Positions 14,946 to 18,725 of a stretch of 64,000 bases of DNA are shown here, one piece after another. The notes under the pieces are model-generated. The model worked only from the letters and a program-made list of their open reading frames with translations, did no database searches and was not told where the DNA came from. This stretch comes from Fibrobacter succinogenes (GTDB lineage Bacteria > Fibrobacterota > Fibrobacteria > Fibrobacterales > Fibrobacteraceae). Numbering within the stretch: position 1 is the first letter of the stretch; each line of letters opens with the position of its first letter. Where the stretch lies: the NCBI GenBank assembly GCA_902799745.1, contig CADCBQ010000003.1, positions 1 to 64,000 on the forward strand, given 5' to 3'. The translations under genes were made by a program, and so were the position numbers.

Positions 14946-16103
14946 TTAGCCTTCCCAATTAGGGTCAACTTCGTACATAATCACATTGACCCAGTACACC
15001 TCATCTTTGAACTTGACGTATCTGGCTGCCGTATTTTCCGGTTCAAGCAGGAACTCGATTTTGTCAAAGTTGCAAATGCACTTGGTCACCGCACTCTGAT
15101 CGTAGTAATCGAGCATCAACGTGTCGCCAACCATCTTTTGAGAAACCTTCGCCTCTATTCCGCAATAGTCCATCACGTTTTCCAACGTCAAGATGGTTTG
15201 GCCATTCATGTAAGTAATCTGCGTTGCTTCGGGGAGCTCGGAGGCCGCGCTTTTTGCAACAGGCTTTGCAGCAAGGTCATTGTCCATGCACTTGCCTCGT
15301 GCATAACCATTCAATTCCAATTCCGTCTGATTCGATTCGGGAACGCTATCCTGCGCGGCAGGGATTGTATCCCCTACAACCGTAGAATCGTCCTTAACGA
15401 TAGGAATCTCGTTAATAGTATTATCGTCAAAGACTACATTCAAGGTCGTAGCACTTACGAAATTAGATTTTGCCTCGATTTTGAAAATAAGTCGTGAACT
15501 GCAGAGGCAATCTGTTTGCACGCGAGATTCATCCATTTTTGGAACCACATTAAGATTAGAATAGTTCGTTCCTACAGAAACTTGTTTTATAGGGGGTCGC
15601 CTAATCATGCCAGTCGTTCCACTAATAGCCTCACATGCTATAGATACATTTTCAATAACGATCGCCACCGAATCGGTCCCCTCTTCTGGAATCATGTAGG
15701 CCACAGGCGGCAAGGCAGCATCAACCATGGGGTCCACATTTTTATCGAGGCACGTTCCGAAAACATCATCTGTTCTCTGAACAAGATCTTGACAACAAGT
15801 CATGCTCGACATGTGAATATCAAAGCTCGATGACGACAACACAGAAGATGAACTCGGTTCTTCGCTAGATGAAGACCCCTGTTCCTCGCTAGACGAAGAA
15901 CTAGTCACCTTGCAACAAGTCGTATCGGGAGAAAGCTCGCTAGAGCTAGAAGATGGATTCTCCACAGCGGAACTGTTGCCTTCAGTAATAGGCTCAGGTG
16001 CCGTGCTCGAAGACGAGTCGTCGCCACAGGCGAGCAGCGCGAACGAGAGCGCGGCAGTAATCGGCGCGGCTACAATACCTGTCAAAATTTTCGCGTTTTT
16101 CAT
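14946..16103 (-). CDS. Lipoprotein with Ser-rich linker and two copies of an unrecognised C...CxC domain
   Basis: 385 residues. Lipobox ALLAC (Cys26) is followed by a Ser-rich linker to about residue 100 that contains two CC pairs (63-64, 103-104). Two similar domains follow: the first has Cys157 in IENVSIAC and CLC at 199-201 before RLIFKI; the second has Cys314 in LENVMDYC and CIC at 342-344 before KIEFLL. The upstream gene product has one more copy. I do not recognise the domain. Start ATG is preceded by AGGAGG and overlaps the upstream stop as ATGA. Probably surface- or periplasm-facing; function unknown. Confidence 0.8.
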   Translation of the reverse strand: MKNAKILTGIVAAPITAALSFALLACGDDSSSSTAPEPITEGNSSAVENPSSSSSELSPDTTCCKVTSSSSSEEQGSSSSEEPSSSSVLSSSSFDIHMSSMTCCQDLVQRTDDVFGTCLDKNVDPMVDAALPPVAYMIPEEGTDSVAIVIENVSIACEAISGTTGMIRRPPIKQVSVGTNYSNLNVVPKMDESRVQTDCLCSSRLIFKIEAKSNFVSATTLNVVFDDNTINEIPIVKDDSTVVGDTIPAAQDSVPESNQTELELNGYARGKCMDNDLAAKPVAKSAASELPEATQITYMNGQTILTLENVMDYCGIEAKVSQKMVGDTLMLDYYDQSAVTKCICNFDKIEFLLEPENTAARYVKFKDEVYWVNVIMYEVDPNWEG

Positions 16104-16900
16104 ATGAATCCTCCTTCTTGTTTATTCTGTTTTGGGGGTTCCGAAACAGGAGTCAAATCTTCCACCGGAAAAGCATCCCTTCGATTAAATACCGTATAGT
16201 CAAAGCCCGAATACCTCTTATCCAGTGAAAATTCAATTCTGGCCGCACAAACACAACCGTATGTAGATTTCTTATTGCGCTTTTCATCGCTCCGCGAATC
16301 AGCAACATACAGTGTATCGCTTTCAAGTTTCACCTGAATCTGGCTCCCGTTCCCCAGCATTTTCAAGAACAATTCCCGACTAGAAGCCGCACACGGAACT
16401 TCGAGTGCAACATCAATCAAAGTTACCTTGACCCAATCATTCTCCACATATTTTTGGGCGGAAGGCGTGAATCCAAAATCCTTTTTTTGATCAGAGGAAT
16501 CCAACTCGTATACTTCGCCCAAGCAATAGACTAAAGGACTGTTCGGATTTATGGTATCAGACGATTCCGACGAAGATGACACCGGTATCGGATCCGGCAC
16601 AAGACCCTTATCTTCAATCGAACTGCTGCTGACTTCCTTTGAATCCACGATCGACGAGCTAGATTCTTCCACGATTATCTTTGCAGACGAGCTGGATTCG
16701 GTAACGATATCCGCACTGTTACTGGACGAACTCGATTCTCCCACATCCGGGGCAACCGCCGAAGAACTGATTTCGGACGAGCTGCTAGCCTCGGCAATGG
16801 AATTCGGGTCAATCGTCCCACCGGCCACATTGTCGCTGGAGCAGGCCACCATGAAAAAGGAAAATATAGAACTGACGGCTAGTGCAAACTTCTTAAGCAT
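16100..16900 (-). CDS. Lipoprotein with Ser-rich linker and one C...CxC domain
   Basis: 266 residues. Lipobox MVAC (Cys20), then a low-complexity linker to about 120 with repeated SSSS blocks. The C-terminal domain has Cys170 (LIDVALEVPC) and CVC at 216-218 followed by RIEFSL, the same pattern seen twice in the next gene. The extra Cys126 may pair elsewhere. It overlaps the TIGR02147 gene by eight bases and the next gene by four, so all three should be one operon. Function unknown. Confidence 0.8.
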   Translation of the reverse strand: MLKKFALAVSSIFSFFMVACSSDNVAGGTIDPNSIAEASSSSEISSSAVAPDVGESSSSSNSADIVTESSSSAKIIVEESSSSIVDSKEVSSSSIEDKGLVPDPIPVSSSSESSDTINPNSPLVYCLGEVYELDSSDQKKDFGFTPSAQKYVENDWVKVTLIDVALEVPCAASSRELFLKMLGNGSQIQVKLESDTLYVADSRSDEKRNKKSTYGCVCAARIEFSLDKRYSGFDYTVFNRRDAFPVEDLTPVSEPPKQNKQEGGFI

Positions 16901-17726
16901 GGTGCACCTCTTTAATTTTGTCCGTTACCGGGAAAAACTGGAAATTGATTCTACAAACCTGATCTTGGTCGTTGTATTCGTTCGCAATCGCAAGCACTTT
17001 TCTGCAACAGGCATCGAGCTCTTTTGCAATCCTTTCACGAGCCTCTTGATTCACGCTGAGCGTGACACCCGTAAAATGGCGCTCGTTTACGGAATAACGG
17101 TCTACAGCGCGGGCAGCCATGTTCGCCATCTCCTTATGCATGGCACGAATGGCAATGGACAATGCCTCCTGGGAGCCGATCACGGTCTGTTCCGTCTGCG
17201 AATAAACCTTTTCGCCGTCCTTTTTCAGGAACCCGGCCTTCACCAAGAAATTCAATACATCGCGCACTTCTTCGGCAGACACATGTTCCTTGCATTCGTC
17301 GGCAATGTCGCGAGGAGTCGCCCCCGGCATCATCGGAATCAGTTCCCTCAGAACCGGATACTTCCAGGATTCGTAATACTGGAATGCATCGCCATCGACC
17401 ACGCGCACCTTATGTTCCAGCGCAATCCTCTGCATTTCAAGGAGCGCCGCCTTCTTGATTTCGTCTTTATCCGCATTGCAGAATAGGACCATTTCGCGGA
17501 AATAATCCGCCTCGTAGCCAACGAGCCCCATGGCCTTTGCCACATCGTCTATTTTGACCTTGCTGAGCTTACTTTGGCCCATACACACAAGCTTCAAGAA
17601 ATTCGGCGAGGTAAAACCGGCACTCTTGCAGAACTCGCGCCACGAAAACGCACCGAGACGCTTGCGTTCGTCGTAGTAGTCCTGCATAAAGAGGTGATAG
17701 TCTTTATATTCAAGTACCGATTTCAT
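16893..17726 (-). CDS. TIGR02147-family (DUF4423) regulator-like protein
   Basis: 277 residues. It matches the second large Fibrobacter paralogous family TIGR02147: start VLEYKDYHLFMQDYYDERK, GAFSWREFCKSAGFTSPNFL (helix-turn-helix-like), YFREMVLFCNA, and the C-terminal FTGVTLSVNQEARERI and CRINFQFFPVT. Family members look like winged-helix DNA-binding proteins and usually stand next to lipoprotein or surface genes; their biochemistry is not established. It is first in an operon with two lipoproteins and divergent from a third. TTGACT-17-TATATT lies at 17762-17734, leaving the ATG eight bases from the -10. Confidence 0.88.
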   Translation of the reverse strand: MKSVLEYKDYHLFMQDYYDERKRLGAFSWREFCKSAGFTSPNFLKLVCMGQSKLSKVKIDDVAKAMGLVGYEADYFREMVLFCNADKDEIKKAALLEMQRIALEHKVRVVDGDAFQYYESWKYPVLRELIPMMPGATPRDIADECKEHVSAEEVRDVLNFLVKAGFLKKDGEKVYSQTEQTVIGSQEALSIAIRAMHKEMANMAARAVDRYSVNERHFTGVTLSVNQEARERIAKELDACCRKVLAIANEYNDQDQVCRINFQFFPVTDKIKEVHHA

Positions 17727-17984: not shown

Positions 17985-18725
17985 ATGAAAAAAGCGTATC
18001 TCAGCGCATCCATGATATCCATTGCCATTCTGGGCGGTTGCGGTGACGATTCCGGGTCGTCCGCTTCGACAACCGTCATGCCCGACGGAGTCGTAAAGAC
18101 AATCGCCGAACTCGAAAAGTGCAACTCCTCCATCAAAGGCGTCGTTCTACAGGTTCTCGCAACCGGTAGCTACTACCGCTGCGAAGACAACGAATGGGTC
18201 GATCTCGGCTGGGAAAAAGAACTTACAGCTTCATCCAGCAGCAGCCGTTCCGAAAGCGGCAACACCTCCAGCTCGAAAGTGATCTTCAACGAAAAAGACG
18301 CTATCGAAACTCCCGCAAGCTGCTCTTCTTCGATTGAAGAAGAATCCAGTTCCAGCATTGAAGAAGAAAGCTCCTCTTCTGAAATCGAAGAGGAATCCAG
18401 CTCCAGTGAAGAACTGATCGAAAGTTCCTCCTCCGAAGCCGAAGAAGAATCCAGCTCTAGCGAAGAAGAAGAAAGTTCCTCCTCCGAAGCCGAAGAAGAA
18501 TCCAGCTCTAGCGAAGAACCGATCGAAAGCTCCTCCTCCGAAGCTGAAGAAGAATCCAGCTCTAGCGAAGAAGAAGAGGAAAGTTCATCCTCTGAAGCAG
18601 AAGAAGAATCTAGCTCCAGTGAAGAACCGATCGAAAGCTCCTCCTCCGAAGCCGAAGAAGAATCCAGCTCCAGCGTAGAAGACGAAGAAGAAAGTTCTTC
18701 TTCTTTTGAAGTTGACGACAATTAA
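17985..18725 (+). CDS. Lipoprotein with Ser/Glu tandem repeats
   Basis: 246 residues. Lipobox ILGGC (Cys19) and a small domain to about residue 75 (TIAELEKCNSSIKGVVLQVL, YYRCEDNEWVDLGW with two Cys) are followed by 165 residues of repeats built from ESSSSEAEEESSSSEEE units. The repeat part is extremely acidic and presumably extended, like a stalk. The N-terminal domain resembles the short Cys-paired segments present in the FISUMP lipoproteins (CRNGRWE). It is divergent from the TIGR02147 operon. The repeats should be recombinogenic, so length may vary between strains. Confidence 0.82.
   Translation: MKKAYLSASMISIAILGGCGDDSGSSASTTVMPDGVVKTIAELEKCNSSIKGVVLQVLATGSYYRCEDNEWVDLGWEKELTASSSSSRSESGNTSSSKVIFNEKDAIETPASCSSSIEEESSSSIEEESSSSEIEEESSSSEELIESSSSEAEEESSSSEEEESSSSEAEEESSSSEEPIESSSSEAEEESSSSEEEEESSSSEAEEESSSSEEPIESSSSEAEEESSSSVEDEEESSSSFEVDDN

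Follow-up and report, generated by a model that had tools for sequence, protein, structure and literature searches.

Two adjacent predicted lipoproteins of Fibrobacter succinogenes share a four-cysteine unit and follow a TIGR02147 family regulator

PMC4704652 describes TIGR02145 (the Fibrobacter major domain as named in NCBIfam; Fib_succ_major, PF09603) as a putative cellulose-binding protein of approximately 175–200 residues and a possible analogue of cohesin, and reports that no cellulosome parts were found in the phylum of Fibrobacter. In F. succinogenes S85, 40 of the 49 quantified putative lipoproteins were down on cellulose, according to PMC6851124. The unit with four conserved Cys that we describe here is, like Fib_succ_major, a lineage-typical and presumably extracytoplasmic domain, and it is found in two predicted lipoproteins, A and B, the latter encoded directly behind a TIGR02147 gene, as are five Fib_succ_major proteins of the same genome. 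Yet, searches of NCBIfam and Pfam left both A and B without a match at E up to 1, and the unit comprises about 100–130 residues with four Cys. Lipoproteins with the CarboxypepD_reg domain (PF13620) share with B the place behind a regulator and a similar signature after the lipobox, but have a different body, no such match being obtained for A or B. The four-Cys domain is not mentioned in the available parts of PMC4704652, PMC6851124, PMC3079729 and PMC4619616, nor is such a domain named in the titles among the matches listed in our literature search. Fibrobacter is an important rumen fibre digester, and the domain may bear on the question of how it grips its substrate.

The operon is located on contig C3 of a 2.99 Mb genome (52 contigs, 86% complete), within the 64,000-nucleotide stretch of DNA that was analysed as a whole and is referred to as the window. 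Its features are as follows:

16893..17726, minus strand: first gene of the operon, predicted regulator of the TIGR02147 (Fsuc_second) family with a C-terminal DUF4423 (NCBIfam, Pfam)
16100..16900, minus strand: protein B, predicted lipoprotein of 266 aa with one four-Cys unit, B1 (ORF)
16841..16843, minus strand: lipobox Cys20 of protein B, FMVAC (motif in sequence)
16790..16828, minus strand: post-lipobox signature VAGGTIDPNSIAE, B residues 25–37 (sequence comparison)
16136..16540, minus strand: unit B1, B residues 121–255, Cys 126/170/216/218 (sequence, profile, AlphaFold2 model)
14946..16103, minus strand: protein A, predicted lipoprotein of 385 aa with two four-Cys units, A1 and A2 (ORF)
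15396..15770, minus strand: unit A1, A residues 112–236, Cys 118/157/199/201 (sequence, profile)
14949..15311, minus strand: unit A2, A residues 265–385, Cys 272/314/342/344 (sequence, profile, AlphaFold2 model)

The first-pass annotation had described overlapping genes led by a TIGR02147 regulator, and this holds: the A and B genes overlap by 4 bp, the B and regulator genes by 8 bp, and the regulator scores 277.2 bits against the TIGR02147 cut-off of 50, with 90.9 bits for PF14394 (DUF4423). Both A and B have a hydrophobic N-terminus followed by a lipobox-like motif, namely ALLAC ending at Cys26 in A (LLAC26) and MVAC20 in B. A PADLOC search at E up to 0.1 had no match to A, B or the regulator. 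Divergently to the operon, positions 17985–18725 of the window carry a gene encoding a Ser/Glu-repeat lipoprotein, and ORFs with a similar N-terminus are found near the operon in L083, L153 and L158.

The Cys reported earlier for the three units (157/199/201 and 314/342/344 in A, 170/216/218 in B) are indeed at these positions, with 42 (A1), 28 (A2) and 46 (B1) residues from the first of them to the CxC, in agreement with the range of 28–46 given for them. The count of three conserved Cys per unit has to be corrected to four, as another one is positioned 39–44 residues upstream (A118, A272, B126), so that the pattern reads C-x(~40)-C-x(28–46)-CxC, with Cys denoted below C1 to C4. Relatives were collected separately for each unit (39 rows for A1, 31 for A2 and 36 for B1, with no units in common), and hhalign joined these disjoint sets with probabilities of 97.9% for A1–A2 (E 4.5e-13), 96.9% for A1–B1 (E 1.3e-10) and 95.6% for A2–B1 (E 1.3e-8). 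Since sets without overlap are still joined, the likeness exceeds what chance would give, and A1, A2 and B1 almost certainly represent one homologous domain. The proposal of an unrecognised domain present three times in two adjacent lipoproteins is thereby upheld, also in that the units found no match in Pfam and NCBIfam. C1, C2, C3 and C4 are occupied by Cys in 39, 34, 34 and 39 of the 39 A1 rows, in 30 (one gap), 31, 31 and 31 of the 31 A2 rows, and in 31 (five gaps), 36, 36 and 36 of the 36 B1 rows. These three sets and a set of 186 units are free of preselection, the profile of the latter being derived from a 60-unit alignment; the 60-unit and 37-unit alignments were preselected for C-C-CxC and their Cys are invariant by construction. 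Besides the Cys, the consensus includes P-x-AY, NV ahead of C2, GDTL ahead of CxC and F after it, and in the 37-unit alignment A, T and F are the only other columns conserved to at least 90%.

Judged by these profiles, the unit is a domain of about 100–130 residues which the searched libraries do not describe and which hardly occurs outside Fibrobacter. A lack of other homologues with the Cys pattern would have spoken against the original proposal, but the 37-unit profile found them in 76 of 167 Fibrobacterota genomes. The carriers comprise 72 of the 80 genomes of the genus and four others, all belonging to the same family, and the searched Fibrobacterota outside this family gave no match. The same profile had no match in a sequence search of the PDB, and tblastn of unit A2 against plasmids returned three matches only, all at E 2 or worse. 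Among complete ORFs of the fetched loci, 105 carriers possess one (49), two (33), three (22) or four (1) units, often preceded by Ser-rich linkers, and 103 of the 105 begin with a lipobox-like stretch, as defined by a loose pattern. The third carrier of the source genome (L078:1973–2965, contig C7) contains two four-Cys units and lies on a contig without a TIGR02147 match. In L083, a relative of A carries a third unit at its N-terminus; in a comparison by eye, L082 and L083 have almost the same A2 unit and differ more in A1, the additional unit being found in L083. The pattern across L081–L083 looks like unit-wise recombination.

So far, sequence comparison shows the homology of the units, their four conserved Cys, the lipobox-like N-termini and the order behind TIGR02147 genes at many loci. 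From these data we infer fold, Cys pairing and function, and lean narrowly towards reading the unit as a disulfide-pinned β-domain, carried on lipid-anchored stalks, that serves as a binding module under its own regulator. Proteins A and B would be exported, lipid-anchored and held off the membrane by the linker, and their units would bind a polysaccharide, another surface protein or some other molecule outside the cell, while the adjacent TIGR02147 protein would switch the operon on or off. The binding or adhesion role is the least certain step; it is suggested by the domains of other TIGR02147 partners and by the stalk-and-repeat layout, and we put it forward tentatively, at slightly less than even confidence.

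That the TIGR02147 protein is a private regulator of the operon seems reasonably likely from the gene order. The best 30 loci retrieved with B include 27 in which the regulator adjoins a unit-bearing gene, which is a one-unit gene of the B1 class in 25 cases, a one-unit gene of the A1 class in L054 and a two-unit gene in L055; the remaining three are matches to multi-unit proteins. In the 30 loci brought in by A, where flanks of 1.5 kb were often too short (e.g., ending inside B in L013–L015), the regulator is present in 13, located in front in 12 and behind in L016. Larger operons contain up to four unit-bearing lipoprotein genes, with 1+3+3+2 units in L144 and 1+2+3+1 in L151. In L144, L147, L150–L152, L160 and L163, an ORF of 244 aa (MKYTDEAKQNF start) is positioned directly downstream of the lipoprotein genes. 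L162 (G070) has two TIGR02147 genes in its cluster; one leads the unit-bearing lipoproteins, and the second follows these and has its own lipoprotein ORF downstream.

The same arrangement extends beyond the four-Cys unit. In the source genome, 21 of the 22 TIGR02147 genes (L061–L077 and L079) have a same-strand lipoprotein gene immediately behind them, the exception (C28:32568–33383) having no lipoprotein ORF behind it and, by eye, two pectate-lyase-like ORFs on the other strand. For 20 other genomes, represented by one TIGR02147 gene each (high-scoring, hand-picked and thus non-random), 19 of the 20 downstream products passed the lipobox motif test, and in the twentieth, L178, a lipobox is present behind a miscalled start. 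As a control, the same question was put to window genes at large, and a lipoprotein gene stood directly behind 9 of 55 calls. Some of these 55 are doubtful ORFs, and the regulator of the window itself is missing from them, its place being taken by an antisense call; gene calls were the longest ORFs, and the lipobox was a loose pattern. TIGR02147 was detected in 156 of 167 Fibrobacterota genomes versus 2 of the 127 other genomes sampled. It was not found in the literature searched, where we met no description of the regulator-lipoprotein rule either. In the 20 partner lipoproteins other than B, each of which can carry several domains, we identified Fib_succ_major in five (four over the cut-off), CarboxypepD_reg in seven at E up to 0.01 (two over the cut-off), Laminin_G_3 in two, and CBM_4_9 and Pectate_lyase_4 in one each; three had no Pfam match at E up to 0.01, the remaining ones had weak matches only, and most other matches were not carbohydrate-binding. 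The repeated, lineage-confined domain together with the 21-of-22 rule points to specific genes to knock out or express.

These counts bear on the possibility that the regulator is an incidental neighbor and the lipoproteins are envelope proteins of a structural or housekeeping kind. The domain does often occur with no regulator in view, as in L078, in L082 (where neither the regulator nor B accompanies protein A, as judged by eye across 13 kb) and in 17 of the 30 A loci, although with short flanks in the last case. Against it, the proportions of 21 of 22 in the source genome and 19 of 20 in the others stand against the 9 of 55 in the control, and we regard the incidental association as unlikely.

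As for the Cys, our reading envisages a small all-β domain pinned by two nested disulfides, C1–C4 and C2–C3. Of 186 units taken from complete ORFs, 160 have both C2 and C3 and 26 have neither; a loss of one without the other does not occur among them. In 9 of the 26 reduced units C1 and C4 are kept in the alignment; in the other 17 C1 was left unplaced by the alignment, and the parent protein has a Cys 59–71 residues before C4, the C1–C4 spacing of complete units being 64–99. A quick tree of 184 distinct rows, built on few columns, requires at least three changes of the C2/C3 state. Four reduced units have a CxxC elsewhere instead. Six of the 26 carry an extra Cys near C1, which gives an odd Cys number and counts against simple pairing. 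Among carriers, 40 of 47 have an even number of Cys in the mature protein (one more, in which no lipobox was called, was left out), as do 15 of the 19 Cys-bearing partner lipoproteins of the source genome, B included, and 26 of 43 other lipobox ORFs; an even number also fits four-Cys metal sites. As C2 and C3 are lost together while C1 and C4 stay, nested disulfides are favored over a site with four metal ligands, and the pairing C1–C4 and C2–C3 is, on this sequence pattern, probable. The alternative left by the first-pass annotation, a disulfide or a metal site, is in this way narrowed in favor of two disulfides, with the metal site disfavored.

According to the latter explanation, the four Cys would bind zinc, iron or copper and the lipoproteins would scavenge or sense metal or the redox state. 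It draws on the presence of four conserved Cys including a CxC, on one Asp that is likewise invariant in the 12-row alignments, and on the distribution of oxidation systems: neither of the two usual disulfide oxidases, DsbB and VKOR, was detected in the 80 genomes of the genus (control genomes, 6 of 14 and 3 of 14, respectively), so that exported cysteines might stay reduced. However, a four-Cys metal site should be conserved jointly, and the domain persists in the 26 units with C1 and C4 alone, C2 and C3 having been lost only together and with at least three changes on the tree; moreover, the A, T and F columns of the 37-unit alignment provide no further conserved ligand. We therefore consider metal binding improbable. 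Under the preferred disulfide reading, the route of disulfide formation is left unexplained, since no DsbB or VKOR was found in these 80 genomes. Literature matches on Fibrobacter disulfides or DsbA, judged by titles and the beginnings of abstracts, did not concern Fibrobacter disulfides. Fibrobacter has an anaerobic life-style. Paired Cys in exported proteins of a genus without detected DsbB or VKOR pose a testable question on disulfide formation in an anaerobe.

AlphaFold2 models were obtained for units B1 and A2 from alignments of 12 units each. The B1 model has a pLDDT of 77.1 and a pTM of 0.74, and the A2 model is of low confidence (pLDDT 58.8, pTM 0.53). Both are all-β with identical strand order, the B1 model having an extra helix between C2 and C3. 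Unrelated folds, which would have counted against the original proposal, were thus not seen in the predictions for B1 and A2, with the reservation of the low A2 score. With Foldseek, neither model had a PDB match at E < 0.1 (best values 0.66 and 0.16). In a second look, the best structure match was 9gce for B1 (Z 3.3, rmsd 5.3, 94 aligned) and the NigD-like 4pqx for A2 (Z 3.2, rmsd 4.4, 82 aligned), and top Z values of this size are in the range of common arrangements.

The A2 matches raised the notion of a distant kinship between the units and the C-terminal domain of NigD-like lipoproteins (NigD_C, PF17415), which is also all-β and overlaps weakly in structure (Z up to 3.2). For A2 three entries were listed, all from Bacteroides, comprising two NigD-like proteins and one protein of unknown function. 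Besides 4pqx they are 3qwn (Z 3.1, rmsd 4.2, 83 aligned) and 3k6o (Z 2.6, rmsd 4.5, 83 aligned), and 4pqx recurs at rank 23 among the B1 matches (Z 2.5, rmsd 3.8, 81 aligned). This kinship is very improbable: Z values of 2.5–3.2 are frequent by chance, and sequence profiles do not support membership in NigD_C. A Pfam search of 37 units did not list NigD_C even at E up to 10. Family searches retrieved NigD_C loci, and against NigD_C sets the unit profiles reach an HH probability of only 0.2–5.9%, whereas a control of six NigD_C domains versus four distant ones reached 96.1%. None of the six shows the four-Cys pattern, and the two Cys of the four distant ones stand at other places. A PDB sequence search with one NigD_C-like stretch of L134 had no match.

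A broader reading, which we consider doubtful, is that a TIGR02147 gene and the lipoprotein gene behind it form phylum-wide surface cassettes of one regulator and one lipoprotein. Their bodies would be exchangeable (four-Cys units, Fib_succ_major, lectin-like, CBM, pectate lyase), the four-Cys units being one body class whose disulfides would form without DsbB or VKOR, and a short peptide behind the lipid Cys (in B AGGTIDPNSIA, elsewhere AGTVTDTGNTIA and the like) would mark the partner gene and might be a tag used in sorting, in export to the surface or in feedback on the regulator. Immediately behind the lipid Cys, the partner lipoproteins do share a peptide of the form AG..(D/E)..N.IA. We formulated a loose pattern with the sequences already in view; it fits 16 of the 21 partners of the source genome, 10 of the 12 B-type proteins and, among other lipobox ORFs of the operon loci, 10 of 82. 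The narrower [AG]GGT[IVT]DP is present in all 12 B-type proteins compared. In L161 (the same locus as L055), the gene behind the regulator combines the signature peptide with an A1+A2 body, which implies that the peptide is tied to the position beside the regulator and not to the body.

The signature was also considered as a DNA operator, and this was rejected because the codons vary and the peptide rather than the DNA is conserved. Its mean identity in 13 sequences is 78%, versus 26% in the next 20 residues. Codons for the same residue differ in 459 of 760 pairs (60%) in the signature, versus 59 of 141 (42%) in a control block, and the former proportion points to selection on the signature peptide.
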